DNA of 64,000 bases. Origin: Isoetes taiwanensis (Eukaryota; Streptophyta; Lycopodiopsida; Isoetales; Isoetaceae). Positions 9,901-40,674 of the stretch are shown one piece after another (position 1 is the first letter of the stretch; every line of letters starts with the position of its first letter). Made by a program: the position numbers and the translations under genes. The stretch covers positions 6,525,424 to 6,589,423 of the forward strand of contig JAJEKV010000053.1 in the NCBI GenBank assembly GCA_021234155.1, given 5' to 3'. Below the pieces are notes generated by a model, which saw only the letters and a list, made by a program, of their open reading frames with translations, ran no database searches and was not told where the DNA came from.

Positions 9901-12690
9901 AAATTATTCTTGCTGTCAGTTGGGCCTCCTTAGGATGAGCATCACAGTTTTCAGGTTTGCCCTGTATTTGCCCCTATCTGGGCTAATTATGCTGCTATTT
10001 TGCCTCTTACAGAACCGCTGCACGTGCTTCTCGACACTCCAACTGTCACCGCTTTGGCGTCTTACATTGCAGAGGTTCTTCATCGGTGGACTCAGCTGAT
10101 GTCCACTTGATGGCTAATGGCATCCTTCTGTACATACTTGAATATACTTCTATTCGAGGCTTATTACTGTCGAGATTCTTATTTACATCGGTGTGATTGC
10201 CGACTTTGTTCCAGAATGATCTTCAAAAACACAATTCATCGTCTTCTTGCCAGTTACTTTTGCTTCAATAACTGAGCTTTTAATGTCTTGTTACTGAAGT
10301 TACTTGACATGCTCATATTTGTTTCTTAGTTTCACTATGTTACTGTATGTTCAGGCTCTCCTATTATTGTTTTTGCTACTTTTGAAAGTCAATACAAATA
10401 ATTACATGTCTATATGGACATTGTTTTTTATTATTTTTGCACTAATATAGCATATAGTGGTATAACCTCCAGGTTTATATTAGATATAGGATCTTCATCT
10501 TCTATTACAAATGGACTTCAACATTTCTAGGGCTATGTTACATGTTTCTACCTATCTATGAGACGTTTATGAGTGGCCCAGACCATTCACTGGCCTTCAA
10601 ATCAAGAGTTAATGTTGATAATGAAACAGGTGCCAGCATCAACAATCTGTTCATAACACAAAGTGATTTTATAAGGTCATGGACTTGGCTACAATTTTGA
10701 TTTTTGTCAAATCGAAATACATGTTACATCAGATTATCAATGTCTTGTTGATTGTGTTGAAAACAAAACATACATTAATTTTGCTATCGGAGCCTGCACA
10801 TAAGCTTCATGTATTCAATGAACACATGTTAGCATTAATGCCACAGTTCATGTGGCGGATGAATCTCACAGTTCTTGTGCACCCGAACAACGTCTATAAC
10901 GTTCTCTGTGACACGTACGCTCTTCAAAAACACTTCATACTGGCATTGAGGAAACTGCAGACCTTAGACAGTTTTATGATTTCAAATATTTAAAATAACT
11001 GTATATCAAACTTTGTACTACTTCCCTCAAATGCTAATTTTACTAAATCTGCATATTACTTGAATGATTCTTCCTTAAAATAAAATAAGTTGCTTGCGTG
11101 TGGGAATATGGTGCTTGTTGTGGTGGATTTATGGTTTTGCACTTTTCAATATTTAGATTTTAACAAAGTATTTCGAGTGCATATCTAACTTTGAAACTCT
11201 ATAACAAGGTTCAGATAACAAAAACTCCAATTGAGATATTGAGAGAAAACATGTGCAAGCCAAAACGAATACAATTGTGCTCATCCCATAAGCAAATTAT
11301 CGATACTTCTGTATGATAGTAAATACATAAATTATGTCACATTCCTAGATCATGAATCACAATTGGAAACATTTATCTTGCTCCATTTAACCTCTGGAAA
11401 GCTGCCTCTGAGTGAGTGAGAGTAGTCCGTATCTTCGTTTTCTTCACCGTGAAATCGAAGCCATTCACTCACTTTGAAGCACTTCACACCTTTATTGCTG
11501 AGACATAAAAAAGGAATCTGATTGACATTGATAACAAGATTACCTTGCCTAGAAACATATCCCACTTATCATGTAAGTGAAGAAATTGAACCCATTGGAG
11601 AAATTGAATCCCATAATCATACTACTATAGTAGACAAGTATGTTCAGACCTTGAAACCCTGCCTAGCCAGCATGCTGCTGTGATCTTTGTACAGGTTAGC
11701 ATCTGTACTGACTAATGGACATACTTGCAGCTGCACTCCCCATTTGGTGAGCCAACGGTCTCGTTTTGTCTGCCAACAAGCTTGAAGACGCTGGGGGCCC
11801 ATGGCCAAGGCATATGCAAGATGAGGGAGCCTTGTGTCGCCCATGCGGACCACCTTTTGGAAGTAAAGGATAGTGCACGAGGCCACCTTCTTAATGAGTT
11901 GACAAAGAACAGTATATGGGTTATAGTATTGAATTGAATTGAATTGAATTTTATCGTCCATGGAGACCGACTTCATAGTGTGAAGCAATCGTATTATCAA
12001 TAAAAAACCACGTGGCCTTTGCATCATTTTCTTTTAATATGATTTTTATTGTTAGATAAAGGATAGTGCACGAGGGCATGAATACATAATTGTTATCCCA
12101 CAACATATAATATTTTCTGGACATATAATATTTTTCTTGATATCTGTTAATCGTATCATTCCATACTTATTACTTTTATTGTGTGGGGACAAGATGAAAG
12201 AGACCTCATTTAATTTTATTTAGTTTGTGTTGTATTTCTCACCTTTACCACATGGTTCGAAAAACTTTATAAGCCTTACCAGACAATTTGCCGCCTATAC
12301 CTAATATGTACCGGATTTAATAGATAACAAGATTCAAATATACCGGATTTTAAACTAAACTCTACTCTTTTGTACTGGAATTTTGCCAATCTAAAATGGA
12401 AATTTTGAATTCCAACCGGAATTTTAAGGGCCTAACCCTTACTTTTTCGAACCTTGCTTTACCATTGGATGAAGACAACTAGTCTTGTCCTACTAATAAA
12501 TGATTATCTAAACTTCCACATTTAGCATATATGCCTTGGTTAGTAGTTCCACTATGTCCAAGAATATATTTTGGTAAGGGACTCGCACAGAACACAGAAA
12601 ACCGCCGAAATAGATAGGCTTGGCATTCATCACAGCAGCAATATACAAGGGTTGGAAAAAACATGGAGTGGAGAGCTGACCATAGGAACA
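9901..12690. other. Intergenic DNA with weak coding traces only
   Basis: No gene can be supported. A minus-strand frame at 11644-11880 contains VVRMGDTRLPHLAYALA, which faintly recalls the tail region of non-LTR (LINE/RTE-like) polymerase ORFs; without a catalytic domain nearby I cannot claim it. A plus-strand frame of 104 codons at 10679-10993 is unrecognised and AT-rich. The left end of Ty3/gypsy element A begins near 12,700. Confidence 0.4.
11929..11951. repeat. (TTGAA)n microsatellite
   Basis: Four consecutive copies of the pentamer ttgaa, followed by a partial copy. It is a simple sequence repeat in otherwise unannotated DNA. Confidence 0.9.
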
Positions 12691-12699
12691 ACGTCGAGA

Positions 12700-13895
12700 T
12701 CCCCAAGATCTTCAACTGCAAAGTGTGGAGCATCCTGACGATATTGGTCTGCATGATGGCGGTACCGTTCCTGAGCCTGGACAAGGTGTCCCTGAAGATC
12801 ATCCTGGAGCTGACAAAGCTTGTCAAGTCGATCTTCGGCACTGGGGTTAATCGAATTAGAACCGGGAGCAATGAAGGACCAGCGCGGATGAGTAGCATAA
12901 TTCACAAAGAATGGCGTCTGCCTAGTGGAAGCATGAACTGAATTATTATAGGCAAACTCCGCCAACGGGAGCCAGGAAGTCCAGTCATCCTGCTGATAGC
13001 TGAGAAAACACCGCAAATACTGTTCCAGAGTCTGGTTGGTGCGTTCCACTTGGCCATTAGTCTCGGGGTGGTGCCCGGAAGACAGGTTGCGGTCCACTCC
13101 TAAGAGCTGCAGAAGCCGTTTCCAGAAACCGGCAACAAACTGGGGGCCCCGATCACTGATAGCAGAGTCTGGCAATCCATGAAGACGGACTACTTCCCGG
13201 AGGAACAGATCAGCCGTGCCTTCACTGGTGATGGTGGTACTGCATGGAATAAAGTGTGCCATCTTGGAGAACCGATCCACGACTACAAGGATGGCATCAT
13301 GCCCTTGAGAGGGTGGAAGTTCCACAATGAAATCTACTGAGATACTCTTCCATGGACCATCTGGGACTGGCAAGGGCTGGAGCAGACCGTGCAGGAGATG
13401 CTTAGGAGTCTTCGCCCGGCAACAAGTATCACAGGAGCGTACAAACGCCTCCACTGTGCGGCGGAGACCGGGCCACCAGTAATCTCGACCAATGAGCTCG
13501 AGAGTCTTGGCCACCCCAAAATGACCAGCTAGCGGAGTGTCATGACAGGACTGTAGAACTTGGAGCCTGGGATTCCCATCTGGGACATACAGGAGGCCAT
13601 TGCGGAACACGAGCCCATCCCGCACTTCAAACTGCTCATATTTCTCAGGGGAGGCGGCAGAAAACACTTCCTGAGCTAACGGGTCGGAGGGCAGAGCCCC
13701 CCGAACTGACTCCAACAGGACGGCATCATGAGGTCTGTCATATAAAGTGAGGGCCATGAACTGCAACCGGTCAGGTCCCAAAACCACCTGTGACTGTTGG
13801 TCAAATGCGGGATCTCCTGGCTTTGACTCGAGGGAGGAACGCCGAGACAAAGCGTCTGGCTTCCCCTGGAGTGCCCCGGGCCGATACTTGATCAC
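12700..13895 (-). CDS. Element A integrase (3'-truncated)
   Basis: Open minus-strand frame. From the N-terminus it has the RNase H/integrase connector (KYRPGALQGKPDALSRR), the HHCC zinc-binding module (SCHDTPLAGHFG, then CDTCCRAK), and the catalytic core with DDE residues in SVDFIVELP, SDRGPQF and NGQVERTNQTLEQ. The N-terminal part of the C-terminal domain follows (RYRHHADQYRQ, HFAVEDL). The motif after the last one should be the SH3-like and chromodomain region, but the frame runs into unrelated sequence. Integrase inserts element cDNA into host chromatin. The core looks intact; the truncation makes this copy unlikely to be autonomous. Confidence 0.9.
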
Positions 13896-14471
13896 AAAGT
13901 CTACACGTGACAGACAACACCTGCGTGTCCCACCGTGCCTGACGCCAGTTCAGAACTCGAGCAGACTGAAAATACTCCAAATTCTTGTGATCGGTGTACA
14001 CAGTGACCTTGTGAGGGGACCCTTCCAAGAACCTCCTCCATTCGTCAAAACAATCAACTATCGCCATCAGCTCCTTGTCATAAATGGGATAATTGATCTC
14101 TGCAGCCTGGAATTTCCTGGAATGGAAAGCAATGGGGTGCAACTCATGGTCATCCCCCTCCTGTGACAGAATACCCCCAAGGGCAAAGTCGGATGCATCC
14201 GCTTCTACCACATACGGCCGTGAAGGATCCGCATGGGCAAGGACTGGTGCCGAAGTGAAAGCATGTTTCAGAATGACGAAGGCCGTCTCTGCTTCCACAC
14301 TCCATTCGAAAGGCACATCCTTCGACGTAAGGCGCTCAAAGGAAGCACAATCTCCGAGTAATCCTTAATGAAGCGGCGATAAAAATTAGCAAACCCCAGG
14401 AAGCACTGGATATCTTTGACTGAAGAAAGTGTCTCCCACTCAAGCACGGTTCTGACCTTTTCTGGATCCAT
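13801..14471 (-). CDS. Element A RNase H and RT thumb/connection
   Basis: Two overlapping minus-strand frames, 14471-14268 and 14316-13801, shifted against each other near 14,300. The first has SVKDIQCFLGFANFYRRFIKDYS, the connection typical of Ty3/gypsy RT. The second has the RNase H signature VEADASDFALGGILSQ, then YDKELMAIVDCFDEWRRFLEG and VYTDHKNLEYF, supplying the catalytic acidic residues D, E and D. The frameshift breaks the polyprotein here. In the living element these domains are made as part of one Pol chain. Confidence 0.85.
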
Positions 14472-15030: not shown

Positions 15031-15035
15031 GAGAC
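15031..15035. repeat. Target-site duplication gagac, left of element B
   Basis: The five bases gagac directly precede the TG of the left LTR. The same five bases follow the CA of the right LTR. Confidence 0.95.
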
Positions 15036-16682
15036 TGTGACGCTCCCTGCTAAACATACGGCGCCCAGCCGTACGCTCGGCAGGAAATCCCCCATCCGGC
15101 TCACAACCGCCGCGGGCCCGCCGTCTACCCGCTCTCGAGGTGACCCTTAGTGCGGGGGAGGGAATCTGAAAGGTGTCTTGGCGCGCCCCTTCCCCTATGG
15201 GCTCCTATAACAGCGGAAGCGATAACACGTCAGAACTAGCATCAAACATATACGAATACTACCCCGAGGGGTAGTGCATCACACATATACCAATGCAAAG
15301 ATGATAATCATGAACCATAAAACATGAGAGCTCCTACCCTGGTTCAGACTCATAAGGAGGATGACTGACCGGCTAGGCCTCAAGATAGAGCAGACCGAGT
15401 CATGGCAATGGCGAGGGCTGGCATAGAACAATGGCTAGGGTTGACCACTCCATCCGCCCCTCCTGTGCATACTTTGCAGATGGGCTAGATCAGGCTCTGA
15501 CAGGACTCTAGCCTTCCGGAAACGCAATCCCATGGTATCACCCATCGGGACTACTCCAGGTTGCATCTCCCTGGTCCGATGAGGCAGGAAGGGTTGCATC
15601 TCCCCTTCCCAGGGTCTAGAGGTGCCGTGGGCGGCTAGAGAATCGTGGCGACACACACACGGTCGTGCCGGATGAACCCCCAAAACGAGAGCCAAGCCAT
15701 CACTTGCAGCTCTCGAGAGGCGTGGCAACACCATTGCCCGGGGAGGTGTCGGACCCATGCTCGCCCACTGCTAAGTGACCGACCATAAGCCTAGCCCACT
15801 ATGGGATCCCCCGAAGCCCCCACTCGGCAGGGATCCTCCCTCCACATTCCCTCTAGCCCCGTTATCCGGTCTTTGAGTCAGTATCATAGCCTCCATAGCC
15901 GGTGGGCTCCTATGCACAGGCCGCAACTAATAGGAACTAAGGGATCTACTCTAGGAACATACTACATATGGCCCTAGGTCTCTACCCCCCTTCCCAATAC
16001 AAGAGGAGCAAACATGATCAACCATCAACATATAATCATCACATCATGAGAATAATCATAAGAAGAACATCTTAACCTAATCATACAAATCTAACTAATA
16101 GTTAGGGTTCCTTGATTAGGGTTCAAGATGTTGAATATGGGCTCTAGGATGGCTCTACTCTAGATACAAGATACTAGCATATCTGGAATGCTAATTCCAG
16201 ATAAGCTATCACAACTGCTATCCTACATACCGCTCCCGAAGCTCTCCCCCGGATCCCGGGCCTCCATGGTCTTCGACTCACAAGCTGCTGTTCCTCCTCC
16301 AAGAACAGGTCTACCCTGCTGGGGCTGCTGCACCAGCCTATGCCACAACGAACGATGTTCGAAACGGGGTTTCGAACAAGTAGGTGAGTCTCTGGGTGCT
16401 AGGGCTGGAAAGAGGTCTAGGGTTAGGGTTTATGCCTATATAAGTTAGGTCCACCTAGGATGCCACGTGGCACCAATCGGGTGAGTCTTGTGTGGCGGTG
16501 CCCCAATAGGTTAAGGCCACATGGATAATGGCTTAACCTATGGTTGGCTAAGTTATGAGAATAACTTGGCCATGCCCCCTAGTGCCACCCTTATGGTATA
16601 CAAGGCTATGAATGATAGACTTGTATGGTGACGGATCCAGGAATATACGTATTTATAGCGTATATTCCCCTGGACCGTCACA
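15036..16682 (-). repeat. Element B 3' LTR (left copy)
   Basis: 1,647 bp, starting TGTGACGCTCC and ending GGACCGTCACA, so the ends form a 7-bp inverted repeat with TG..CA termini. It matches the right copy almost throughout; small differences sit mainly at CTG/CCG-type triplets (for example aatctgaaagg here against aatacgaagg at about 26,627). It contains a perfect hairpin tgttcgaaac/gtttcgaaca at 16356-16378 and a TATA/telo-box block at 16423-16444. Confidence 0.95.
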
Positions 16683-16718
16683 TTCTCCCCCCCTTAGGAC
16701 AATGCTGTCCTCAGCATT
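16683..16718 (-). promoter_or_regulatory. Element B polypurine tract with adjacent hairpin
   Basis: On the minus strand, taagggggggagaa (16696-16683) abuts the 3' LTR, the expected place for the plus-strand DNA primer. Just upstream is a palindrome aatgctg-agga-cagcatt (16718-16701). The same hairpin plus purine tract plus TGTGACG occurs in plus orientation at 31473-31515 in element C, so the arrangement is conserved between elements. Confidence 0.85.
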
Positions 16719-17599
16719 GCGCTAAGGTGACGAACCTACCTTATACCTGCAACAAAACAACATGTCATAACCTTTAATTTTACTTTAGTAATCAAGTTTT
16801 ATTAGTTAAAGGTCAAAATTTAGGCTATATTTGTACTTATACAAAATTATATAGCCTTAACACGGTTATTTCCTACGATAATTCAAACATTATTATAAGA
16901 GTTATTAGGGTTCATAATCTAAATTATGGCTCCCCCTAGCTTCTCGTAACGCGCTCCTCGTTGAGGTCCTCCTTCTACTTGCCTGCAAAAAGGAGCACAT
17001 TACGTTAGTTTAGTTAATAATTTGTGGTTTTAGGGGACCACCCCCCTTACCTCCTTGAGCCGAACTACTGGCTCAAGGTTGTCCTACTACCTTGCCCAAG
17101 ATCATGGCCCTTTCGGATTTGAGCTTAGGGATCATTTAAGATGCTCCCATCATTGCCCATGATCGAGTGCTACCTTGTACACGATCCCCCGGATCGAGTA
17201 CACCCCAGTGCATCATGCCCCGAGGGTTTCAGCTAGGGAACGTCTCACGATCCCATCATCAGCAAGATGATCACTTAAGCTTCACCATGACCCTCCTACG
17301 GCCGGTGCGTGATTCCCGCATCGTGGCATAGAGATCATCCGATCGATGTCCCATCATCGCCCACCATGCCTCATTCCTCACTCACATGACCCTAATGGTC
17401 ATGCGCACCTCTTGGTGCGTGTGGCCTAGAGAATGCCCTAAAGGCGTATCCCATCATCGCCCCCACACGATCCAAGGTTCCGCACATGCACCCTCCTAAC
17501 TAGAATGCATCGCCCGGGCTCAAAGCTAAGCGCAACATACTAGCTAACCACCGGCAAGTCGGGGTCGACCAAGTTGGGAGACGACTTCGCCCATCAAAC
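16719..17599 (-). other. Element B 3' untranslated region
   Basis: Between the integrase tail and the PPT hairpin there is no sustained frame. The sequence is rich in short imperfect repeats around catcatcgccc and gatcc. I see no further gene. Confidence 0.6.
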
Positions 17600-18900
17600 T
17601 CCTTCATAAACTCGGGTATTGCTTCTCCAAATCCCGCTTCAATACCCACGCCGCATCTTCCACGGGTAAGTGCTTCCACTTAACCGGTATTGAGGAACTG
17701 AGACCTCCTAGTCTTCTTGAATGACTTATCAAGAAGTAACTCGGGGCACTATTTCTACTTGCTCCTCCGTCATTTCCAACAAGGTTGGAGTATCCAAAAC
17801 CTCCTCAGGGTTAGGATTGTGCCTTTTTAATAAACTTACGTGGAAGACCTTGTGGACCTTAAGATGGGCTGGAAGATCCAACTTATAGGCTTGAGAGCCC
17901 ACTCTCTCTAAAATCTTGAACGGCCCAGCCCACCTAGGGGCAAGCTTCTTGCAGCTCCCAATCCGCAGCTTGGCTTGCTTCACCTTGATCTTCAACCAAA
18001 CGGTATCTCCCACCTTAAACTCCCTTACGGTCCTGTGCTTGTCGGCTACACTCTTCTGCCGACTTCTTGCTGCCAATAAATAACCCCTTACTTCCTCTAC
18101 TAGTTGCTGCATATCCCCTAACATCTGTTGGGACACTTCTACCTTGGACACAGGATTGTGCCAGGTATCCGGGGTTAAGCACTGGTAGCCGTAGTTCACC
18201 ATGAAAGGCTTACATCCGGGATGACTCCCCTTGCAAGTAATCGCTTTGTAGGCTTAATTCCACCAAGTGAATGTACTCATCCCACTTGGACTGCTTGTTC
18301 CACACATAGCTTCGAAGCATGTCCTCAATGATCCGATTGGTCCTTTCCGTCTGGCCATCTGTTTGGGGATGATATGCCGTGCTCATGGAGAGCTTCGTCT
18401 GAATGGTGCTAAAGAGATCCTGCCAAAAGGCACTCATAAACTTAGAATCTCTATCAGATATTATCTCCCGAGGCATGCCATGGAGTCTAAAAATCTCCCT
18501 TACAAATAACTTTGCAGTATCTAATGCGGTGTCAGTAGTTTTGCAAGGCACAAAATGCGCCATCTTTGATAACTTATCTACGACAACCATCAATGCATCC
18601 TTGCCTCGAAGAGTTCTAGGGAGACCTGTGATGAAATCCATGCTTATGACCTCCCACTTTGCATTTGGCACCCCCTAATGGCTCTAAAGCACCGGAATCC
18701 GTAGCTTGCTCGCGCTTGGTCTCGGGCTGACACAACTGGCAATCCCGAATATATGCAGCTATCTGCTTCTTCATACCTGGCCAGAAGTAGCTACTTCGAA
18801 TCTTGAAATAGGTCTTCATAAAGCCAGCATGCCCTGCTATTGGGCTGTTATGTGTGTCATGAAGAATTAACTTCCTTACCCCCGATGATAGGGCACACAC
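17600..18900 (-). CDS. Element B integrase with chromodomain-like tail
   Basis: Frames 18900-18616, 18671-18210 and 18202-17729. The zinc-binding module is LHDTHNSPIAGHAGFMK then CQLCQPETK. The catalytic core has SMDFITGLP, IISDRDSKF and QTERTNRIIEDML, supplying D, D and E. The C-terminal domain reads FKVGDTVWLKIK, GPFKILERVGSQAYKLDLP, KVHKVFHVSLLKRH. Beyond 17,729, in shifted frames, the minus strand gives KWKHLPVEDAAWVLKRDLE (about 17,680-17,620), which resembles the end of a chromovirus chromodomain. Such tails direct insertion to heterochromatin. Confidence 0.85.
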
Positions 18901-19631
18901 AACTTATGCTTGTGATACAACAGTTGCCTTCCTTCTTATAATGTTTGAAGGCTTCCCGCTCCTTATATCCGTTTCGCTTCCTTGGAAAGACTTTCCCATA
19001 CCTCCTTGAAGTCTACATCTGTTGGCAAGGACTCTTCAATCTTCTTGCCAAACTCACTCGAAAGAGTGGAAATCGTGATTACAATGCGCCCTTGTCCGAA
19101 ATGGTCTCCCCGGAGAGGGCATCCGCTACAACATTAAGCTTACCGTGCTTATATATAATATCAAAATCATACTCCTCAAGGAATTCCATCCACCTCCTTT
19201 GCCTTAAGTTGAGGAGTGGTCGGGTGAAAAATATACCAAGGCTCGGTGATCAAGATCTAACTCAAACTTCCTTCCCAAAGAAATAATGCCTCCATATCCT
19301 CAATGCCCCGACAATGGCTAGCAGCTCCCGATCATGGGTTGGGTAGCGTTGTTCGGCGCCGTTCATCTTCTTCGAAGTCGAGGGCGACTACCCTTCCTTC
19401 TTGCATCAAGATCGCCTCTGTTGCTATCTTGCTTGCATCCGTTGCTATCAACTTATCCTTACCGGATCCGGAGAACAAGCACCGGTGTGCTGTTGTTAAG
19501 GCCTCTTTAAGCTTCTCAAAAGAAGCTTGACTTTTTCTAACCAATGGCTAGCCCAATCCTTAATCTTCTTGGCCTTAGTGAGGTCCGGACGGAGGGGACG
19601 CCCACCTAGCAAAGTCCTTCACTTTAACTTT
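18901..19631 (-). CDS. Element B RNase H region (degraded frame)
   Basis: A 70-codon frame (19544-19332) holds ASFEKLKEALTTAHRCLFSG and LIATDASKIATEAILMQEGR, the first RNase H block, including its catalytic Asp. The remainder to 18,901 is coding only with several frame changes; fragments of the KELLAIV-type and DHQSL-type blocks can be inferred only weakly. It lies in the correct place between RT and integrase. Confidence 0.65.
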
Positions 19632-20344
19632 CTATAGTATCCCGCCAACCCGAGAAAGCTTCTTACTTCGCCACATTCCTTGAGCTGGCCAATCAACTAT
19701 TGCCTCAATCTTAGATGGATCTCGTGGAGATTCCCCTGATGTTACCACATGCCCCAAATACTCCACTCTACTGCTGGTAAAGTGGCACTTAGAGAGCTTC
19801 CCATACAACCTATGACGCCTCAACTTCTCCAACACTTTCCCGAGATGTCGACAATGCTCTTCCGGGGACTTGTCTGAGATTAGGATGTCGTCGAAGAAGA
19901 CAATAACAAACTCATCCAAGAAGTCTCTCAAGATATCGTTCATGAGGCGATAAACGTTAAGGGAGCGTTGGACAATCCAAAGGGCATTATCAGTAAACTC
20001 AAAATGACCATACCCGCTGCTCAAAGCGGCCTTATGGATGTCCTCTTCTTTTTTATTCTTATCTGATGGTATCCTGATCTTAAATCAATCTTAGAGAATA
20101 CCTTTGCTCCTTGTAGCTGATCCATTAGGTCATCCGCCCTTGGCAATGCATACTTATTCTTTATCGTCTGCTTATTGAGCTGGCGATAGTCTATGCACAT
20201 TCTTAAGCTCCCATCTTTCTTCTTGACAAAGAGTATAGGTGCTCCGAAAGGAGACACACTTGCTCTTATAAATCCAAGCTCGAGCAATTCTGCCACTGTT
20301 TCTTGAGCTCGGCCAATGCGGGATGCTCATTCTATATGGCGCTT
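19632..20344 (-). CDS. Element B reverse transcriptase (frameshifted)
   Basis: Pieces 20296-20021 and 20024-19632 in different frames. Motifs in order: [74 protein letters not shown] (the catalytic YxDD with FFDD) and [20 protein letters not shown]. The expected PFGLTNAP block is damaged near 19,980. At least two indels break the frame in this copy. Confidence 0.88.
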
Positions 20345-22392
20345 TTATCGGTCGGCCAGATCCGGAGCCAATGTGATCTCACATTCCACACCCCTATAAG
20401 GTGGCAGCTGCCGGATTTCATCCGGAAATACATCCCTGAATTCTGAAATAAGCCTTGCTATCTGCCTGGGCAGCTGATTTCCCTTTGTGTCACTTCCATC
20501 CTGCTTGCCTGGCTCAACTGATTCCATCCTCAAGATGTAATCCACCTTATTCCTTTCTATACTCTTCCTTAGCTGCTTCAAAGAAATACACTGCATAGGG
20601 GATTCTAGCTTCTTACCTTTCACTATCAACTTGCTGCCGTCTGGTGCCGTCATGGTGACTTCGTTCCGGTCACAATCAATTACTGCTTTAGCTGGCTTCA
20701 AGAATTCCATCCCCACAATAAGATCATACCTTCCAATATCCATGACTTCTGCTCCCATCGGCCATTTAGCCCCACTAAGATCTATGTCAAAGATGATTCT
20801 CCTCCCCTTAGTGTGCCGGATGGCGCCGTTTGCCATAGCTACTGGCCTTGGCTTAGACTTCAATACCTTGTTCTTCATTAGAGCAGCCAGTCTAGGAGAT
20901 GCAAAATTATGAGAGCTACCTGTATCTATGAGGACTACATATGGCTTACTATCTATGATTCCCTCAGCCGCAATGACCGTTGACTGATTCTCTATATCAT
21001 CTGACTCAATGTTTGCACATATGTGGCACTCACCATCTATGAAGTCCTGGGCCTCCTGCTGTTCATCGTCCTCGTCCGCTTCTGTTGGGGAGTCCCAATC
21101 CATAAGCTCTGCCAAGGCTGACTGCATGACGAATGGACAATCATGTGTCCTGTGCCCTGGCTGGAAGCACCTGAAGCATAACTTCTTCTCAATGCATTCC
21201 TGTCTCTTTTCCTTCGGCAGACTGTCTAGGAGACGCTTAAGAGCACTTCCCCCTGATGCATTCTGTGGCTTACGGTCCCCAAAAGCTTTGCTCTTATCCT
21301 TACCTTGCTGCTGGCCCCCTGATGGTGTAGCTGCTGATTGCTTACCCTGATATTGTCCCTGATACTGCCCTGAACTCTTACCCCTGAAGGTTGACTGCTT
21401 CTCTGCTGGAGTTGCTGGTGCCTCCTCCAAACTTATAGCTTTATCTTCGGCCTCTGCAACTGACCTTGGGTTGATTGCTCTAACAAGCCTCTTGATATTG
21501 CTGTTCAACCCCTCAATATAGGTGTCCACTGCTTGCCTTTCTGATACTCCCGGGACATGAAGTCTAAGTCTCATGAATTCTTCGGTATACTTAGCCACTG
21601 ATAAGGTACCCTGATTCAACCTGTAAAACTGCTGAATCTGTCTACTAGTATGAGACCTCGGCACATAGTGCTTGCGGAAAGCCTTGCTGAAGGTCTTAAA
21701 CCTGCAATTATTCCTCTTCAGCTTGTTGGACTTAGCATATCCCTTCCACCAGATCCTTGCCGGTCCAATAAGGTTAGCTGTCGCGACTTTCCCTATGTCC
21801 TTGTCTTTCATACCGTATGAGTTGCCAAATTCTTCCATTTCATCCAGCCATGCTTCAGCCTCCATGCCTGATCTGTCTTTCCCTGAAAACTGGCCCAGCT
21901 TCCTTGTCTTCCACACATTGCTCATAGCACTATCCACCTTTTTCTGATAGTCATCCGTCTTTCTTGCCCTTTTTCTTGCCTTAGGTGTGTCGACTCACCA
22001 CCGTTTGAGCTAGAGCCGCGCCACCGGAAGAACTATCCGATGAGCCGGAACTAGATGATGATGGACTCCCCGGTTCTCCTTCTTCGTCTCTTGTCCCTGA
22101 CGTTGCCGTGGTTGCCCTCCCCTTCCTGCTGAGGGACTTCGTCACCACCCGGAACACAAGGTGGAGGCGGAGGACCATCTTCTTGTGCATTCATGAGAGG
22201 TGTCGCCCAGTTGATGAGATGTTGCATCTGATTCCTCATCTGTACCAACCTTGCATTAACCGGGCCCGTGACATATCCCCGCTCAAAGTCTTCCCCGCTC
22301 TCGCCGAACAAGTTCCTTGGTACCCAATTATGGTGGTCGGTGCTGGTCCCGAGACCCCGTGACTTGAGTTCCTTGCTGCAAGTATTGGTCAT
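20345..22392 (-). CDS. Element B gag and aspartic protease
   Basis: The N-terminal part is in two shifted frames (22392-22051 and about 22190-21981). From 21937 one 530-codon frame continues. It has a Ty3-type Gag (ARIWWKGYAKSNK, FSKAFRKHYVPRS, YTEEFMRLRLHVPG), a CCHC zinc knuckle CFRCFQPGHRTHDC near 21150, and a retroviral-type protease with active site VLIDTGSSHNFASPRL (about 20940-20890). The segment leads into RT with VFPDEIRQLPPYRGVECEI. Gag packages the RNA; the protease cleaves the polyprotein. The Gag-Pol fusion is in one frame here, with no slippage site needed. Confidence 0.9.
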
Positions 22393-22598
22393 TAATACGT
22401 GTTATTAAGTTAGGCAATGATCATTATTGCTTACAATTAAATTGTTGTTAGCCACAAAAGAAATCATATGAAAACTTCATTTATAGGTCAACATCATAGT
22501 AGTACATTAATTAGTATATAGGAATACATTCACTAGACTTCATGATAATACTTAAGAAGAATTACAATATACTTAAATCTTATGAGACAATTCTTCCA
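22393..22598. other. Short AT-rich spacer between ORF2 and gag of element B
   Basis: About 200 bp, clearly more AT-rich than flanking coding DNA. It may hold a splice acceptor or internal leader for gag expression; none can be proved by eye. Confidence 0.35.
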
Positions 22599-23264
22599 TC
22601 AATGATGTCGCTTGAAGAAGTTCTTGATTTTCTTGTATGCTGTGCCCTTTCCCATGTTCTCGCAAAGATTCTCGCCCGACCCTCCCTCTAATGCTCTTGC
22701 CACCTGTGGTGCTGGTAGTTCTGGTGCAGTTGCCGCTACCACTGACAAGTGCGCATCTCTGAGGTGGCCCCTTGCGAAGTCGAGGGCGTGAAGTGCTACT
22801 GCTCTCTTAAAGAGTATAACATGGTCCATTCCGACATCTATCTTGGCGTGATGCCCAAACCCTGTAAGCGCTATAAGGAGCGCCACTGATTCTTCACCTC
22901 TTGGGCTGAACTCCTTGTGAAAGACTATCATCTGACCTTGGCTAAGGGCCGGAAGATAGTACCTGAGTGATTTACCCCTATGTGGCCCCGTGGCTCCAGT
23001 GCCTTTCCTGCCCGCTGCCTGCCCGACGATGTCTATTGCTGTAAGATCTTCGTGGTCCCTCCACATTGTTGCTGCGTTTTCTAGATTAATGCTACTAGAT
23101 GCCTCGCGCATGCTCCTGGAGCGGACTGGTCGGCTCGAACTTGGGCCCCTTCCCGGCTTGTACAACCTGCTTTGGATCTCCTGAAATTCCTCCTCTGGAA
23201 TGTCGGGTTGTTTGTTCTTGAAACATCCGCCTTTATCTGGCTGGTGCGCTTGGATATCCGACAT
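22599..23264 (-). CDS. Element B unknown ORF2 (221 aa)
   Basis: Starts MSDIQAHQPDKGG, overlapping the end of ORF1 by 32 bp in another frame. That fits either a compact arrangement or a single longer protein split by an indel. The middle has a basic Ser/Arg stretch (SSSRPVRSRSMRE), followed by a more hydrophobic folded-looking half (VALLIALTGFGHHAKIDVGM) and a strongly basic end (KKIKNFFKRHH). Not recognised. Gag begins about 200 bp further on. Confidence 0.55.
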   Translation of the reverse strand: MSDIQAHQPDKGGCFKNKQPDIPEEEFQEIQSRLYKPGRGPSSSRPVRSRSMREASSSINLENAATMWRDHEDLTAIDIVGQAAGRKGTGATGPHRGKSLRYYLPALSQGQMIVFHKEFSPRGEESVALLIALTGFGHHAKIDVGMDHVILFKRAVALHALDFARGHLRDAHLSVVAATAPELPAPQVARALEGGSGENLCENMGKGTAYKKIKNFFKRHH

Positions 23265-24117
23265 GGTTTCCTAGCAGGGAGGAATGTCGCTCGGCTACCT
23301 CCCTCGGGATCTCCTGATAGGAGTAGTCGATGAAGTCGCTACCCTGTTCCTGTGCCATTAGTCCTAGGAGCTCGTCTATCCGGAGGTTTTCCTCTTGGCA
23401 ATAGGGAAGGTTAAGGATGTCGGTGGCGAATATATACTCCTCTCCGTCAATGATCACTGGGGTGAGGGCCGTGATACCTATTGGCGGTTCGAAATCTCGC
23501 CTTAGCCCCTCGTGTTGCTGAGCTATACGCCTCTCCATCCTTCTTGCCTCGCTTATCTCCCAGCTTGGGTTCTCTTCCTCTTCTTCCTCATAGTCCTGCT
23601 CGATCTGCAGTCTAGGTGTTTCTGATGTAGACCCATGGTATTCGTATTGCGCTGTTTCGATCTCGAGGATACCTATCTGCTGCCTTCGAGTGTCGAGAGG
23701 AGCTAAATCCAAGGGTTGAATGGACGGCTCGCCTGGTTGGTTGACTGCTCTATACTGCATGAATAAGGCTAAAGCTGCCTGGTTTGAGACGTACCTATGC
23801 CTATGATGCTTACAGGTCATGTAGTCTGGCATGTTTCTGGTTCTATCCCACAACCTACTCTTGCCCCTAGATCCCCCACCTATGGCTTGGGCAAGGGTGT
23901 CTAAGGAGACCCATTTCCCCCCCCTAGGTGGCAAGCTGACCTCCCCGGGTAAAATGAGCTGATCATATTGACAAATGATGTCAGTGTAGTAAGGAGTTCT
24001 GGTTAGGGTGGCGTGAAGATCAAAGAGATGATCGAAGACATGAAAGGCTTGGTCAGCAGGGAGTTCACGGATGTGATTGGAATCATTGTACCATCTAACA
24101 AAGTTTGATGGTGCCAT
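23233..24117 (-). CDS. Element B unknown ORF1 (about 294 aa)
   Basis: Open minus-strand frame; I prefer the ATG at 24117 (MAPSNFVRWYND) because upstream residues look like leader sequence. No family recognised. Visible features: an N-terminal aromatic-rich part (HVFDHLFDLHATLTRTPYYT), a central basic segment (KHHRHRYVSNQ), an acidic run (DYEEEEEENPSWE) and a C-terminal YSYQEIPREVAERH. No zinc knuckle and no membrane segment. It ends 32 bp inside ORF2. It could be an additional Gag-like structural protein or a captured host gene. Confidence 0.6.
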   Translation of the reverse strand: MAPSNFVRWYNDSNHIRELPADQAFHVFDHLFDLHATLTRTPYYTDIICQYDQLILPGEVSLPPRGGKWVSLDTLAQAIGGGSRGKSRLWDRTRNMPDYMTCKHHRHRYVSNQAALALFMQYRAVNQPGEPSIQPLDLAPLDTRRQQIGILEIETAQYEYHGSTSETPRLQIEQDYEEEEEENPSWEISEARRMERRIAQQHEGLRRDFEPPIGITALTPVIIDGEEYIFATDILNLPYCQEENLRIDELLGLMAQEQGSDFIDYSYQEIPREVAERHSSLLGNHVGYPSAPAR

Positions 24118-24407
24118 TGAGCAGAGATGGCTGTGAAAAATGGCTGATGGAAACAAGTAGGGAGCTAGAAAATCGCCAAAGGGGCTGGGAGCACTTTTGA
24201 TGGGAAGAAAATGACAAATGGGGCCCCTTTTATAGACTAGGGGTGCCCGGGTTCGTGTGCACAAAGGCTCTTGATGGGAAAGACTCCAAATCTATGGCCT
24301 TGGGTGTCCAAATGAGCTACCATGAAGTGCAATTCTAAACAAAACAAGGCAAGAAACACTACATGGCAGTTTGTTGGGTCAAATTTGGTCAAGCTAGGCG
24401 AAGTTCG

Positions 24408-24688
24408 GGAAAATCGGTGGCGTCGCTACGGATGGGGTCAAGCGTCATGGGCAGCAGCGATTCGGCGCGACGGGACCCGATTTCGGGTTATTTCAACTTT
24501 TAGGAAAAATTTTAGGGTGTTAGAAGATGCTAATATGACTTTCTAGCATGATTCTGACTTAATTAGCAACTTTTATTACTTAATTTGGACATGACTTAGC
24601 TAAAATTTGGCGAAATCGGGTGGCGTCGCGCGGATGGGGTCTGCGTCGCGAGCGCAGGCGCATTCGGCGCGACGGGACCCGATTTCGG
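24408..24688. repeat. Two direct repeats of about 80 bp between ORF1 and the H3-like ORF
   Basis: Segments about 24408-24488 and 24610-24688 share ggtggcgtcgc, cggatggggtc and cggcgcgacgggacccgattt. They flank an AT-rich stretch. They lie in the non-coding gap between the H3-like ORF and ORF1, a possible place for signals controlling expression of the downstream ORFs. Confidence 0.75.
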
Positions 24689-24836
24689 TTCCTGACCTAA
24701 AAAATTTTTTTAATTTCCTTTTCCTATTTAATTACTTAAACATGTTTTTACCCCTACTTTATATTTATTGCACAGTTTTACACAAAACTTTATATTTATA
24801 GGAAAATAATTACATTAGTTTGACAAAATTGCATCC

Positions 24837-25926
24837 TCAAGGGCGTTCCTTGCGGATGCGACGCGCCAAGTGGATGTCCTTGGGCATGAGGGTCACCCTC
24901 TTCGCGTGGATCGCGCAGAGGTTCCCTTCCTCAAACAACTGGGTGAGCTCGGCCTCAGCGGCCACTTGCAACACCCGAGTTGTAAGGGACGTCACCCTAT
25001 AGTCGGTGACGTACTCCGCCATTACCTCCCGCATAAGCCGCTCAAACGGCGCCTTCCTAATCAGGAGATTAGTGCACTGTTGAAAGTGCTTAATCTCCCG
25101 AAAAACTCGGGCGTGCGGGGAATTAGGTCCATGGTGGACCTTCTTGGGCTTCTCGGGCTGTGGCGGCGGCGGCTTGGGCTGGTTCTTTGGCGGCCGGCCC
25201 CCCTCCACTGTCCGCTGGACGTTCTGCCGGCAATACCAATCATTATACCTCGTCCACCGACGAAGGTATTCTTGGTATGCCTTGAGGCGGCGCTGGTAAA
25301 GGCGGTCCTCCTTCAAGGCGAAGCCTCGCTCGCCCGCCTTCTGCTTCTTTACCACCTTAGGTGGCTCGGGCCACACTGGATAAGGTGGTCTTGGTTCTGC
25401 CCCTTCCTCCTGTTCTTCTTCCTCCTCCTCCACTTCTTCCACCTGCTCCTCCTCCCGGCGGGGAGGCTCCTCGATGACGACGGTTCGGCGGGGACCGTCG
25501 TTCTTTCTTTCGTCCTCTCCTCACGCCCGCAACTCCTCCTCACGCTCCCTCTTCCTCCTGGCTGCCCTCTCCTCTGGCCACTCAGTGACCTTCTCCTTGC
25601 CCTTTTTCTTGGGCACCGAAGGCCCCGCTTCGTCCACCTGCTGCTGGACTTGCTCTTCCTCCTCTGTTCCCGCCGGTTATTGTCACGTGGCCCGAAGTGG
25701 CGTGGATTTCATCGGTTCTTTGTGTCCCCGCCGACGAGGGGCTGCTCTCGGCATCGTGGTAGGACTCGTCGCTGCTGCTGCTGCTGGTAGGGGGGAGCTC
25801 CTCTTCCCCCTTCTTGGGCCGTAGGTGCTCTGGTATCTTCTTCACATGGCGTCCCGCTGCTAGGTTCGCCATCGAGAGTGTGGGGCGCTGTCCTGGCTTC
25901 CTGTAGGTCTGTTTGGTCCTGGCCAT
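24837..25926 (-). CDS. Histone H3-like protein encoded inside retrotransposon B
   Basis: Reading starts at 25926 with [12 protein letters not shown]: residues A1-T6 of the canonical H3 tail are exact, A7 is Tyr, R8 and K9 are kept, S10 is Pro. A Ser/Glu-rich and Lys-rich linker of about 260 residues follows ([20 protein letters not shown], an acidic run [11 protein letters not shown], prolines [12 protein letters not shown]). The last 91 residues (25112-24840) are a complete H3 fold: [20 protein letters not shown] (alphaN/alpha1), YVTDYRVTS (loop 1, canonical H3 length), [20 protein letters not shown] (alpha2), [20 protein letters not shown] (loop 2/alpha3). [11 protein letters not shown] is identical to ordinary H3, including the Cys/His of the H3-H3 interface. 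One frameshift near 25,670 and an in-frame TGA at 25521-25523 split the frame in this copy. It lies between PBS and gag, on the gag-pol strand. The H3 identity is firm; the role (chromatin targeting, nucleoprotein packaging) is unknown. Confidence 0.85.
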
Positions 25927-26481
25927 ACTTAACGGTCTAGAAAACGGGTGGGGATAGGCTGGTCAAGAGAGAGGTGGAGGTGTAGGGTTGGAGAGAGAAA
26001 ATGAGGTGTCAGGGATATTTAAAGAGGAGGGTCCCTTAGAATATTCTCCTATCATCATTACCCCTATTTATTAGCCCCCCCTTATTAATTACACCCTATT
26101 TAATAGTTATTTAATTATTAAAATATATACTAAAATTCGTATTATACCTGTAATTTTTCAATTTTCCTAATGGTTTGAGGTGTTAATTATGTATTTGCGC
26201 CATTTTTCACCCGGGTCTCCGATTGGCATGATTCTTCGACCCATTTTAGGTGAAATTTGATGCAGATGCATAATTTTCACTTCAAATTTACTAGAAGATG
26301 AGTTTGACTCACTCAAACCTTCGTCTAACACTTAACCTAAATCCTGACCCACTACCTAGGAGAAAAAATTTTTCCCCCATTTCCGCGGTTCAGTGGTGGA
26401 AATGTTCATTTCACACCTCTATAGGCCTGTTAGACTACTTCATGGTTATGGTCAGTGCTAGTTCTTGGTCAACCAAGAACA
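25927..26481 (-). other. Element B leader between PBS and the H3-like ORF
   Basis: About 550 bp, AT-rich in the middle, no ORF. It would be the 5' untranslated leader of the genomic RNA and so the likely site of packaging signals. The first ATG of a long frame after the PBS is that of the H3-like ORF. Confidence 0.5.
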
Positions 26482-26496
26482 TGGCTCTGATACCAT
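26482..26496 (-). promoter_or_regulatory. Element B primer-binding site, initiator tRNA-Met type
   Basis: One base after the 5' LTR end, the minus strand reads tggtatcagagc, the standard complement of the plant initiator tRNA-Met 3' end. This fixes the element's orientation and the LTR boundary. Confidence 0.93.
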
Positions 26497-28138
26497 TGTG
26501 ACGCTCCCTGCTAAACATACGGCGCCCAGCCGTACGCTCGGCAGGAAATCCCCCATCCGGCTCACAACCGCACGGGCCCTTCGTCTACCCCGCACTCTGA
26601 GGTGACCCTTAGTGCGGGGAGGGAATACGAAGGTGTCTTGCGCGCCCTTCCCCTATGGGCTCCTATAACAGCGGAAGCGATAACACGTCAGAACTAGCAT
26701 CAAACATATACAAATACTACCCCGAGGGGTAGTGCATCACACATATACCAATGCAAAGATGATAATCATGAACCATAAAACATGAGAGCTCCTACCCTGG
26801 TTCAGACTCATAAGGAGGATGACTGACCGGCTAGGCCTCAAGATAGAGCAGACCGAGTCATGGCAATGGCGAGGGCTGGCATAGAACAATGGCTAGGGTT
26901 GACCACTCCATCCGCCCCTCCTGTGCATACTTTGCAGATGGGCTAGATCAGGCTCGACGGGACTCTAGCCTTCGGAAACGCAATCCCATGGTATCACCCA
27001 TCGGGACTACCTGTGTTGCATCTCCCCTGGTCCGGATGAGGCAGGAAGGGTTGCATCTCCCCTTCCTGTGGTCTAGAGGTGCCGTGGCGGCTAGAGAATC
27101 GTGGCGACACACACCATCTGCACTGACCGAACCCCCAAAACGAGAGCCAAGCCATCACTTGCAGCTCTCGAGAGGTGTGGCAACACCATTGCCCCGGGAG
27201 GTGTCGGACCCATGCTCGGCCCACCTAAGTGACCGACCATAAGCCTAGCCCACTATGGGATCCCCCGAAGCCCCCACTCGGCAGGGATCCTCCCTCCACA
27301 TTCCCTCTAGCCCCGTTATCTGGTGCTGAGTCGTATCATAGCCTCCATAGCCCGGTGGGCTCCTATGCACAGGCCGCAACTAATAGGAACTAAGGGATCT
27401 ACTCTAGGAACATACTACATATGGCCCTAGGTCTCTACCCCCCTTCCCAATACAAGAGGAGCAAACATGATCAACCATCAACATATAATCATCACATCAT
27501 GAGAATAATCATAAGAAGAACATCTTAACCTAATCATACAAATCTAACTAATAGTTAGGGTTCCTTGATTAGGGTTCAAGATGTTGAATATGGGCTCTAG
27601 GATGGCTCTACTCTAGATACAAGATACTAGCATATCTGGAATGCTAATTCCAGATAAGCTATCACAACTGCTATCCTACATACCTGCTCCTGAAGCTCTC
27701 CCTCCAGATCCGGGCGCCTCCATGGTCTTCGACTCACAAGCTGCTGTTCCTCCTCCAAGAACAGGTCTACCCTGCTGGGGCTGCTGCACCAGCCTATGCC
27801 ACAACGAACGATGTTCGAAACGGGGTTTCGAACAAGTAGGTGAGTCTCTGGGTGCTAGGGCTGGAAAGAGGTCTAGGGTTAGGGTTTATGCCTATATAAG
27901 TTAGGTCCACCTAGGATGCCACGTGGCACCAATCGGGTGAGTCTTGTGTGGCGGTGCCCCAATAGGTTAAGGCCACATGGATAATGGCTTAACCTATGGT
28001 TGGCTAAGTTATGAGAATAACTTGGCCATGCCCCCTAGTGCCACCCTTATGGTATACAAGGCTATGAATGATAGACTTGTATGGTGACGGATCCAGGAAT
28101 ATACGTATTTATAGCGTATATTCCCCTGGACCGTCACA
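26497..28138 (-). repeat. Element B 5' LTR (right copy)
   Basis: 1,642 bp, same termini as the left copy. It lies at the 5' side of the element as read on the minus strand, immediately followed by the PBS. It carries the promoter block at 27879-27900 and the hairpin at 27812-27834. Confidence 0.95.
27879..27900 (-). promoter_or_regulatory. LTR promoter: TATA box and telo-box
   Basis: On the minus strand cttatatag (27900-27892) is followed at once by aaaccctaa (27887-27879), a telo-box like those in plant promoters and leaders. The identical block is in the 3' LTR at 16423-16444. I infer this as the core promoter, with transcription starting a few tens of bases downstream on the minus strand. 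Confidence 0.5.
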
Positions 28139-28143
28139 GAGAC
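28139..28143. repeat. Target-site duplication gagac, right of element B
   Basis: Exact match to 15031-15035. A 5-bp duplication is the normal length for Ty3/gypsy integration. Deleting the element and one copy restores a continuous RT frame in element A. Confidence 0.95.
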
Positions 28144-29285
28144 AAACCATAGATGGGACCATACGGTGGAGTCTCCCCTGGCTGAAGATCAATGGGGCAA
28201 TCATATGGACGGTGTTCTGGCAGCTTACTGGCTTTGACCTTGTCGAAGACGTCCGAGAAATCTTTGTACTTGTCGGGAAGAACCGGAGCAGCTGTGGCAG
28301 GAGTCGAACTGGTTGCCGGATGAACTTGGATTGCAAATACTGAACTGGGGTCTTCTTTTCCGGACTGAACAAACTTTTGCAGCGAGATTGTCGAAATACG
28401 GAGCCGAGGACGTGAAGACGACTTGGAAAGATCGCCATCGCGATCCTGGCGAGCAGGAACAGGAACAGGAACAGGAACGGGAGCCGGAACAGATGCAGGA
28501 ACAGACTTCGGAGCATGAGCAGGAACACGAGCAGGAATTTCCTTTGGAGCTGGAACAGGGACTGGAACAGGATCAGGACATGAAGCAGGAACAAGAGTCG
28601 GGACAGAGACAGGATCAGGAACAGGGATCGAGACGGGAACAGGATCAGAATCAGCAACTGGGACATGGCAAGAAACAGGAACAGGATTCGAGACAGCAGC
28701 AGAGACAGGGTCAGGAGACCAAGAGACTCTACGGGACGGAGATGGCAGAGCAGAGGCAGGGTTTGTCGAAGAATCAGAACTGGAGCAAGAATTATCAAAA
28801 CGGAATGATCTGGAGCGCCAGTTAATCTGCGGATTGTGTAGCTCAAGCCAAGGAAGGCCCAAAACTACAGGTGCATGTGGGCTAGCGATGAGGTTGAAGC
28901 AGACACTACAAGCTGCTCCATCAAACAGGAGTCGAACCGGCGCGGTACATTCAGTGACCGCGCCCGAGGAGACCTGCTGTCCATCGGCCATACCAACAGC
29001 ACTGGGTTGCGCAACCCTGCTTCTAGGGATGGCGTGCTTGAAAGCAAACGCACTGTCCATAAAGCAAGCGTTGGCACCACTATCAAGGTGCGCAGATGCT
29101 TCCAACTTCCTGACCCCTGACTCCAACACCACAGGAATGAAGAACTCCTTACTGACCTTGTCCGAGGGGATAAACCCTTCACTGCAACTGGGTGGAGCCT
29201 GAGGATTGACGGTCAGTCGGCGAGAGACTCCTACTCCGACCGACCGCTGAAGTTTTCCGAATGACTCGGGAGCTTGACTGGGCAA
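28144..29285 (-). CDS. Element A protease and Pro-rich linker, start of RT
   Basis: A 383-codon minus-strand frame. The protease domain has ASAHLDSGANACFMDSAF (active site DSGA, about 29080) and SPHAPVVLGLPWLELHNPQI. It is followed by a long low-complexity linker of Pro-Val and Pro-Ala units (DPVPVSIPVPDPVSVP, PVPVPVPVPARQD; about 28730-28440). The frame ends with FSDVFDKVKASKLPEHRPYD and TPPYGPIYGLS, the conserved entry to a sushi-ichi/Tcn1-like RT, where element B is inserted. It overlaps gag by about 55 bp in a different frame, so Pol expression would need a frameshift, or an indel has occurred. Confidence 0.9.
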
Positions 29286-30136
29286 CTACGAACCACATGG
29301 CCAGCCCCACCACAATAGAGGCAGAGGTTGGCCTCTCTTCTACGTTGCCTCTCAGCAGCTGACAAGGGACCCCGAACTGCTCGATCAATTTGCATCGGCA
29401 CCGGCCCTTCTGGCCTAGACGGCGGTGCCGAAACCGCTGTGACCACAGGGGTGTGAGAAGCCGGGGGCACATATTGACTCCGCTTTTCTTGCCTATGCTC
29501 GAACAAGCGGTTGTCGCACCGAACAGCAAACTTGATGGCCTCTGCTAAATTCTGCGGCTCATCCATACTCAACAGCATGTCCTTGACATCTTCCCGCAAA
29601 CCTCTCCGGAAACAATCCCGAAGAGCCACGTCGTCCCAGGTGGTATCAATGGCAATCTGACGGAACTCTGACGCATAAGCCGAAGCTGGTCGTGATCCCT
29701 GTCTAAGATTACTGAGCCGGTTCACTGCTGTTCGCTGCCGGTCAGTGTCACCAAAACATGCTTCGAGCTCCGCAGTGAAGCTAGCAAAATCCTGCAATTC
29801 TGGTGCTTGCTTCTCTAGCAAAGGGGCGAACCAACTGAGAGCCGATCCCGAAAGGAGGGAACCGACTAATCCAACCTGTTCACGGTCTGTGGGGTACCTA
29901 TGAGGATGGAGCTGGATAACAAGCCGGATTTGATTCAAGAAACCCCGAAGCTTGGACCGGGTGCCATCAAACTTCTCCGGCAAACAAATCTTTGGCTCAG
30001 ACACCTTCCTTCCAGAGCTAGAAGCTGACTCACTGGAAGTGAGCCGTTCCCTGAGTTCCTGATTATCCTGTTGCAATTGCTGGCAAATCTGCGCAAGCTG
30101 TTGCAGTTGCTGAGCATACGACGAAAGTTCCCCCAT
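29231..30136 (-). CDS. Element A gag
   Basis: Start taken at the ATG at 30136 (MGELSSYAQQ), preceded on the minus strand by ttggtattatcaatcctc. Domains: an N-terminal Gln/Leu coiled-coil (LAQICQQLQQDNQELRERL), a Ty3-type capsid (PEKFDGTRSKLRGFLNQIRL, GSALSWFAPLLEKQ, FRQIAIDTTWDDVALRDCFR), and a CCHC knuckle CLYCGGAGHVVRSC near 29,300. About 300 residues, the usual size for such Gags. It looks intact. Confidence 0.9.
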   Translation of the reverse strand: MGELSSYAQQLQQLAQICQQLQQDNQELRERLTSSESASSSGRKVSEPKICLPEKFDGTRSKLRGFLNQIRLVIQLHPHRYPTDREQVGLVGSLLSGSALSWFAPLLEKQAPELQDFASFTAELEACFGDTDRQRTAVNRLSNLRQGSRPASAYASEFRQIAIDTTWDDVALRDCFRRGLREDVKDMLLSMDEPQNLAEAIKFAVRCDNRLFEHRQEKRSQYVPPASHTPVVTAVSAPPSRPEGPVPMQIDRAVRGPLSAAERQRRREANLCLYCGGAGHVVRSCPVKLPSHSENFSGRSE

Positions 30137-30181
30137 GAGGATTGATAATACCAAAAGCTACTCAGAGGGGTCGCCCAAATA

Positions 30182-38595: not shown

Positions 38596-38894
38596 ATGAG
38601 ATGTAATTCTTGCAATGCTACAATCCACAAACCTTCCCAAAACCAAAACTAAAGAAGCGTACCTATTTGAGATACACAAAGTACTTCGAGTTTTTTATCC
38701 TTCCAATGTCAAAGTTTCCATAATCACTAAATAATGTTCTCTTATATTAGCGGGGTGCTTAGCAGAGAGAACATTATTTAGTGATTATGGAAACTTTGAC
38801 ATTGGAAGGATAAAAAACTCGAAGTAGGTACGCTTCTTTAGTTTTGGTTTTGGGAAGGTTTGTGGATTGTAGCATTGCAAGAATTACATCTCAT
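38596..38894. repeat. Large inverted repeat (147/129-bp arms, 23-bp loop)
   Basis: The left arm 38596-38742 is the reverse complement of the right arm 38766-38894, except for an 18-bp deletion in the right arm (ctttgtgtatctcaaata, which is present in the second mosaic copy near 51,077). The left arm continues the U2AF65 remnant's intron; the right arm opens mosaic copy 1. The near-perfect arms imply a recent event joining the two pieces head to head. Confidence 0.92.
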
Positions 38895-38904
38895 ATCTCA
38901 ACTT

Positions 38905-39310
38905 CAGGTCTTTCAGGTAATGCCTCAAACGAATTTAGTGTCTTGGAATTCCATGGTAACGGCATATGCACAAAACTCTCATGCTAAACAAGCTCTCCAA
39001 CCAATTCTTTCAAAAAATGCAGCTGTAAGGGCTAATTCCAGATAAGCTAACGTTCATAAGTCTACTGAATGCTTGTGTTGCCCAGGAAGAATTAGCTCAG
39101 GGAATTAGAATGCACAAACTTATTGTAAAGGCAAGATTTGATTCCGATGTGGTCGTGAGGAATCTAAAAACATAACTCCAGATGATGTTACATGTGTCAC
39201 CATATTATCAGCATTTGCTATTGAGGAGGGTATTGCCAAAGGTAAGAGAATACATGCTCGGATTATGGGAATGAAGTGGATACTTGTTAAGAATTCCCTT
39301 ATGAATTGGT
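38905..39310 (+). pseudogene. PLS-type pentatricopeptide repeat fragment
   Basis: Reads VFQVMPQTNLVSWNSMVTAY, then shifted frames giving GLIPDKLTFISLLNACVAQE, LAQGIRMHKLIVKARFDSDV, and TPDDVTCVTILSAFAIEEGI followed by AKGKRIHARIMG. These are the L/S/P repeat signatures of plant organellar RNA-editing PPR proteins. Only about four repeats survive, with at least two frameshifts and no start or C-terminal E/DYW domain. Confidence 0.8.
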
Positions 39311-39332
39311 CCGGCTGGTGGGTCTTCATGGT

Positions 39333-40136: not shown

Positions 40137-40296
40137 AAAGGTCTTTGGGCGATGGCAAGACAAAGGTTAGTCAAGTAGATATGCATAGCTTCTTCAACCT
40201 TTCTTTCGGAGGTTTGCGAAGGCCATTTCTACCGCTAGCCTTGAAAAGAGCCGACACACCTTGCCCTTCGTGTTCGTCGTCGTCTTCGCCCTCAAA

Positions 40297-40674
<378 letters not shown>

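Follow-up and report, generated by a model that had tools for sequence, protein, structure and literature searches.

A histone H3-like gene within a Ty3-type LTR retrotransposon of Isoetes taiwanensis

The capture of genes by LTR retrotransposons is known. In Bs1 of maize and in Ogre, extra coding sequence is found inside the LTRs, in Ogre before gag, and in this respect both resemble the retrotransposon described here, which is designated element B; the cargo of element B, in contrast, is a core histone. No LTR element is known to carry a captured H3 gene. Plant Ty3/gypsy chromoviruses share with element B the LTRs, a primer-binding site of the initiator-Met type, the order gag-protease-reverse transcriptase-integrase, and an integrase with an SH3 part, which in element B is followed by a chromodomain-like remnant. 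Element B differs from them in its pre-gag region of about 4.5 kb, which contains an H3-like gene and further ORFs without family match, and in that its chromodomain match stays below the cutoff and lies in another frame. Mobile agents that make use of histone or H3-tail sequences are also found among viruses, namely, in the histones of Marseilleviridae and Medusavirus and in the tail of influenza NS1; these are, however, either DNA viruses or cases of a short tail only, and none of them is an LTR element. Chromodomain integrases read H3 marks, and H3 itself is among the most constrained proteins.

The locus lies in a window of 64,000 nucleotides, which is the whole stretch of DNA that was analyzed. 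With a probability of roughly 0.5, a Ty3-type, probably chromodomain-bearing element would have captured an H3 gene before the present insertion and would carry it along as a variant of H3 borne by the element. For an LTR element, cargo in the form of a core histone would be unusual and surprising. If the gene recurs across copies of the element, it becomes directly testable whether a retrotransposon shapes the chromatin that it targets, and the gene would provide a natural example of an H3 that is strongly altered and in which a long insert separates the tail from the fold.

Structure of the element

Self-comparison of the window revealed two copies of about 1.64 kb (15036-16682 and 26497-28138), which bound an insertion of 13,103 bases on the minus strand (15036-28138). 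Read on that strand, both LTRs start with TGTGACGG and finish with GTCACA, and a target-site duplication, GTCTC, stands outside each of them, at 28139-28143 on the 5′ side and at 15031-15035 on the 3′ side. The 5′ LTR (26497-28138) is followed by A-TGGTATCAGAGC, the primer-binding site TGGTATCAGAGC (26484-26495) being of the plant initiator-Met type, while AAGGGGGGGAGAA, which is named polypurine tract by its position (16683-16695), is found directly before the 3′ LTR (15036-16682). With paired LTRs of the TG...CA type, primer-binding site, polypurine tract, and target-site duplication, element B is an LTR retrotransposon.

By profile matches to protease, reverse transcriptase, and integrase in this order, element B is assigned to the Ty3/gypsy group (Metaviridae). 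The gag-protease ORF of 549 codons (20345-21994) matches PF03732 (E = 5.5e-17) and RVP_2 (E = 2e-10) and includes a CCHC knuckle below the cutoff. Reverse transcriptase is distributed over two frames (19632-20326; PF00078, E = 2e-12 and 1.3e-10), and the integrase comprises a zinc-binding piece (18616-18903; PF17921, E = 3.1e-19), a core piece (18210-18674; PF00665, E = 4.6e-11), and a C-terminal part of the SH3_Tf2-1 type (17729-18253; PF24626, E = 9.4e-24), all on the minus strand. Since the reverse transcriptase and integrase pieces are in different frames, pol is broken in the examined copy. Past the SH3 part, a chromodomain-like remnant of 41 residues is read in another frame (17607-17729); it matches PF00385 at E = 0.0034 and 17.7 bits, under the Pfam cutoff of 25.1. 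A chromodomain in this place would mark element B as a chromovirus.

An outer Ty3-type element is split by element B into parts at 12630-14364 and 28134-30157. Its gag, with DUF4939, is found at 30157-29231 and is accompanied by a weakly matching protease (29285-28134), while RNase H and integrase are at 14364-12630; a degenerate 6-base repeat at 28454-28686 gives rise to a Pro-Val-rich stretch in its protease frame.

Besides the H3-like gene, the pre-gag region of element B contains three ORFs on the same strand. The ORF starting from ATG 24117 (24117-23233, 294 codons) has no Pfam match, and the longer stop-to-stop frame containing it has no NCBIfam match; its sole PDB match is the chain SAKe6DEtal at E = 0.00062, with no stretch passing alone. 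The ORFs of 223 codons (22599-23270) and of 116 codons directly before gag (22051-22401) match neither Pfam nor NCBIfam. Several gene-like signals were recognized by eye, that is, AT-rich flanks around the H3-like gene, a TATA-like TTTAAATAT at 26015-26023 on the minus strand about 90 bases before its ATG, a TATAAAA at 24234-24228 about 110 bases upstream of ATG 24117, and an acceptor-like TTGCAG on the minus strand that ends at 22376 before gag. A layout in which the pre-gag genes would be transcribed separately and the gag-pol transcript would be spliced fits this arrangement. Between the H3-like gene and ORF 24117, at 24401-24688, a GC-rich 27-base repeat is present in two exact copies 202 bases apart, together with imperfect inverted repeats.

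The H3-like gene and its coding signal

The H3-like gene occupies positions 25926-24837 of the minus strand, which is the gag-pol strand, between the primer site (26495-26484) and gag (21994); position and orientation are as given in the earlier note. It is composed of an N-terminal frame (25582-25926) beginning with MARTKQT at 25926 and a C-terminal frame of 227 codons (24837-25520), in which an acidic, proline-rich linker is followed by an H3 histone fold of 93 codons (24840-25118). Tail and fold were searched apart. The exact H3-type start that had been claimed is borne out, as the DNA pattern of MARTKQT matches exactly and once in the window, where 0.07 matches to the degenerate pattern with up to two mismatches are expected by shuffling. 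The retention of R8 and K9, claimed likewise, holds true; A7, however, is replaced by Y and S10 by P, and past residue 9 there is no significant likeness to the H3 tail, the score of this part being matched in 354 of 2000 and in 104 of 2000 shuffles at two gap costs.

That the fold is complete was confirmed by the profile search, which gives PF00125 at E = 5.9e-30 and 104.5 bits versus a cutoff of 26.4. The C-terminal frame matches H3 chains of the PDB at E = 2.2e-29 (among the best 60 of 187 matches), and MPKDI is present in the fold together with a second motif of 11 residues, as had been noted. In tblastn searches of the window with H3 at E up to 10, core (4e-32) and tail (0.49) are found at the H3-like gene, H3 matches in the rest of the window occur only at E 1.8 and 7.2, and H4 gives no match in the window at the same threshold. 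The NCBIfam match of the H3 frame to archaeal histones (17.8 of 50 bits) is far under the cutoff. Single-sequence AlphaFold2 models are of low confidence, with a mean pLDDT of 50.6 for 227 residues and 52.9 for 101 residues, and are uninformative.

A charged linker between tail and fold had also been described, and a stretch of 230-260 residues of this kind is indeed present; the two parts, however, are read in two frames and not in one open frame. In the examined copy, the reading frame of the gene shifts once and is interrupted by one stop, both in the linker. An in-frame TGA stands just upstream of 25520; the period-3 phase of G+C has a single shift, near 25.8-25.65 kb, and is unchanged at this TGA. 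From the exact MARTKQT start, the order of the parts, and the weak phase signal, we infer a single gene of about 363 codons that comprises both tail and fold and has a frame change and a stop in its linker.

Period-3 power amounts to 5.0-7.2 over the C-terminal frame (five overlapping segments, 25738-24839), which is the highest value of the element, and to 3.9 or less in the remaining segments tabulated for element B. In the N-terminal third of the gene there is little coding signal, with a power of 0.8 (26038-25739) and 1.4 (25888-25589) in 300-base segments and a G+C content of 0.60, 0.60, and 0.63 at the three codon positions. It is therefore certain that the H3 fold is coding, but less certain that the tail belongs to it. 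Frame length alone is weak evidence, because among 1000 Markov sequences with the same composition, 8 contain an open frame of 227 codons; a frame of 323 codons is open in antisense as well. The C-terminal frame contains no visible intron, and no long poly(A) follows the gene. Rfam, by which a histone 3′ stem-loop or other RNA was sought, gives no match at the gathering threshold in the window; the five hits at 24300-26500 are all under their gathering scores. No tRNA genes were predicted by ARAGORN in its bacterial setting.

Divergence of the core and timing of the insertion

Alignment with Arabidopsis H3.1 shows 55 of 92 core residues to be identical without a gap, corresponding to a divergence of 40%. 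Identities are distributed unevenly, with 4/14 in αN, 4/5 in the pre-α1 loop, 8/16 in α1, 3/6 in L1, 18/30 in α2, 4/5 in L2, 11/12 in α3, and 2/3 at the C-end. Of the residues of the H3-H3 bundle, 9 of 10 are identical, and of the DNA contacts, 13 of 19. With canonical H3.1/H3.3, which is nearly invariant in plants, the gene thus shares the MARTKQT start, the full ungapped fold, and the near-unchanged α3 and L2; it differs in the divergence of the core, in αN with its 4/14 identities, in the inserted linker, and in a tail that is for the most part unrecognizable. Judged by its fold and its H3-specific sequence, the core is that of a histone H3.

The last 32 core residues, a segment picked after viewing the alignment, include 27 that are identical to H3.1, a value that 2000 neutral simulations, each ended at equal overall identity, did not reach once. 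Stop avoidance and mildness of the changes do not show selection, because 316 of 2000 neutral simulations are free of stops and in 272 of 2000 the changes are no more severe than the observed ones. What speaks for past constraint is therefore the uneven conservation.

The LTRs diverge by 1.6-3.8% by substitutions, depending on the aligner (26 mismatches with 25 gaps in one alignment, 62 mismatches with 15 gaps in the other). An interpretation of the frame changes as sequencing errors was based on the former counts and was rejected, MAFFT giving the latter. The earlier note had considered a host H3 pseudogene present in this copy only. For a canonical H3 dropped in after integration this is unlikely, because such a copy would be almost identical to H3, differing by a few percent as the LTRs do and not by 40%; the divergence of the gene therefore predates the insertion and may have built up either within the element or in a variant of the host.

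GC3 is 0.72 in the C-terminal H3 frame, 0.75 in the core, and 0.63 in the N-terminal frame. The corresponding values are 0.51 for gag-protease, 0.53-0.62 for the remaining pre-gag ORFs, 0.58 for the end of the integrase, and 0.53-0.54 for the outer element. The higher GC3 of the H3 frame agrees with an origin that is different or more recent and would count against long residence in the element. Five ten-base words occur in like orientation in both flanks of the gene, a number also shared by 14 of 1000 Markov pairs. Four of these words are A/T runs or nearly so; the fifth, GCATGATTCT, is found at 24546-24555 and 26226-26235, and there is no terminal inverted repeat inside this pair (6 of 20 positions). 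The flank repeats thus lend no support to a separate insertion of the H3 gene, although one may have occurred.

Origin and possible role of the H3-like gene

In the favored scenario, a Ty3-type LTR retrotransposon would have captured a histone H3 gene before the present insertion. The captured gene would encode a diverged variant of about 360 residues, with an H3-like start, the charged linker, and a fold in which the H3-H3 interface and most of the residues that contact DNA are kept. The gene has its place in the pre-gag block beside other ORFs, with gene-like flanks, and would be present in other copies of the element and be expressed. The bounded element, the histone match, the matches to H3 chains at about 1e-29, the uneven conservation, the period-3 power over the C-terminal frame, the contrast between LTR and core divergence, and the end of the gene without long poly(A) argue for such a capture, while the single, broken copy, the weak N-terminal coding signal, the high GC3 of the C-terminal frame, the low conservation of αN, the chromodomain below cutoff, and the words common to the flanks count against it.

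The breaks in the examined copy would also be compatible with a one-off transduction, in which a single copy acquired the gene of a diverged H3 variant from the host, perhaps along with a neighbor, as a passenger without a role, shortly before or during the present round of transposition. The contrast in GC3 between the C-terminal H3 frame and the other measured frames (0.51-0.62) and the AT-rich flanks with TATA-like sites recognized by eye point in the same direction. Such an event requires, however, a host H3 variant of about 360 residues with just 60% core identity, and this course of events is regarded as rather unlikely in view of the near-invariance of plant H3. Had an H3 retrocopy or a fragment of an H3 gene entered this copy once the element was in place, the intronless appearance of the C-terminal frame and the words common to the flanks would agree with it, and a copy of a diverged host variant would escape the divergence argument. 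Such an insertion is very improbable given the nature of these words, the pair of GCATGATTCT without terminal inverted repeat, and the end of the gene without long poly(A).

As to the identity of the captured gene, centromeric H3s (CENH3s) have long variable tails that often begin with MARTK, and the gene of element B resembles them in its long variable N-terminal part and in the motifs HFQ..TNLLI and VTLM, which are common to it and Arabidopsis CENH3. Nevertheless, the scores decrease from H3.1 (265) over rice CENH3 (210) and CENP-A (191) to Arabidopsis CENH3 (167), so that the gene is nearer to H3.1 than to any of these three centromeric sequences, each of which needs gaps (identities of 42/83 for human CENP-A, 46/93 for Arabidopsis CENH3, and 50/93 for rice CENH3). 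Loop 1 carries no insertion, MPKDI and RIR are canonical, and capture of a CENH3 is accordingly improbable. A chance reading frame or an assembly artefact, to which the Markov sequences with 227-codon frames and the open antisense frame would lend themselves, has next to no probability in the face of a histone match at E = 5.9e-30, an exact MARTKQT start in the right order, and LTR, primer-binding site, and target-site duplication that all fit.

For a captured, element-borne H3, pairing with host H4 and entry into nucleosomes, or else binding to DNA, as an H3 variant can be envisaged. The variant would thereby mark chromatin or element DNA for the chromodomain integrase of the element. This chromatin-targeting role is a proposal, and a doubtful one. 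In its general form, which is equally speculative, a chromodomain LTR lineage would encode its own H3 variant, which would be placed in chromatin or on element DNA and be read by the integrase chromodomain or by host H3K4/K9 factors; the element would then write part of its own integration address or shield itself from silencing.

Relatives were sought in viral contigs with the H3 core, ORF2, and gag and in genome contigs of prokaryotes with the H3 frame and gag; no relative was found in either. As a plant element is not expected among viruses and prokaryotes, these negative results carry little weight. The DNA pattern of MARTKQT, a poor probe as it represents one peptide, matches 115 stretches of viral contigs. 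These were rejected as H3 candidates, since tblastn at E 1e-3, with the core from the window and with plant H3 as queries, gave no match in any of the 115 records.

Further features are found at higher positions in the window. An ORF of 350 codons (48192-49244) shows a weak AAA_22 match below the cutoff and a P-loop-like GSGKT, recognized by eye. A direct duplication of about 3.6 kb (38749-42342 and 51002-54612) is 94% identical, and an inverted copy of 147 bases (38596-38742 and 51017-51163) is 100% identical. An array of tandem repeats of about 1121 bases each, of which about 8.4 copies with 86.8-90.8% identity in the self-comparison are contained in the window, extends from 54610 to the window end at 64000.
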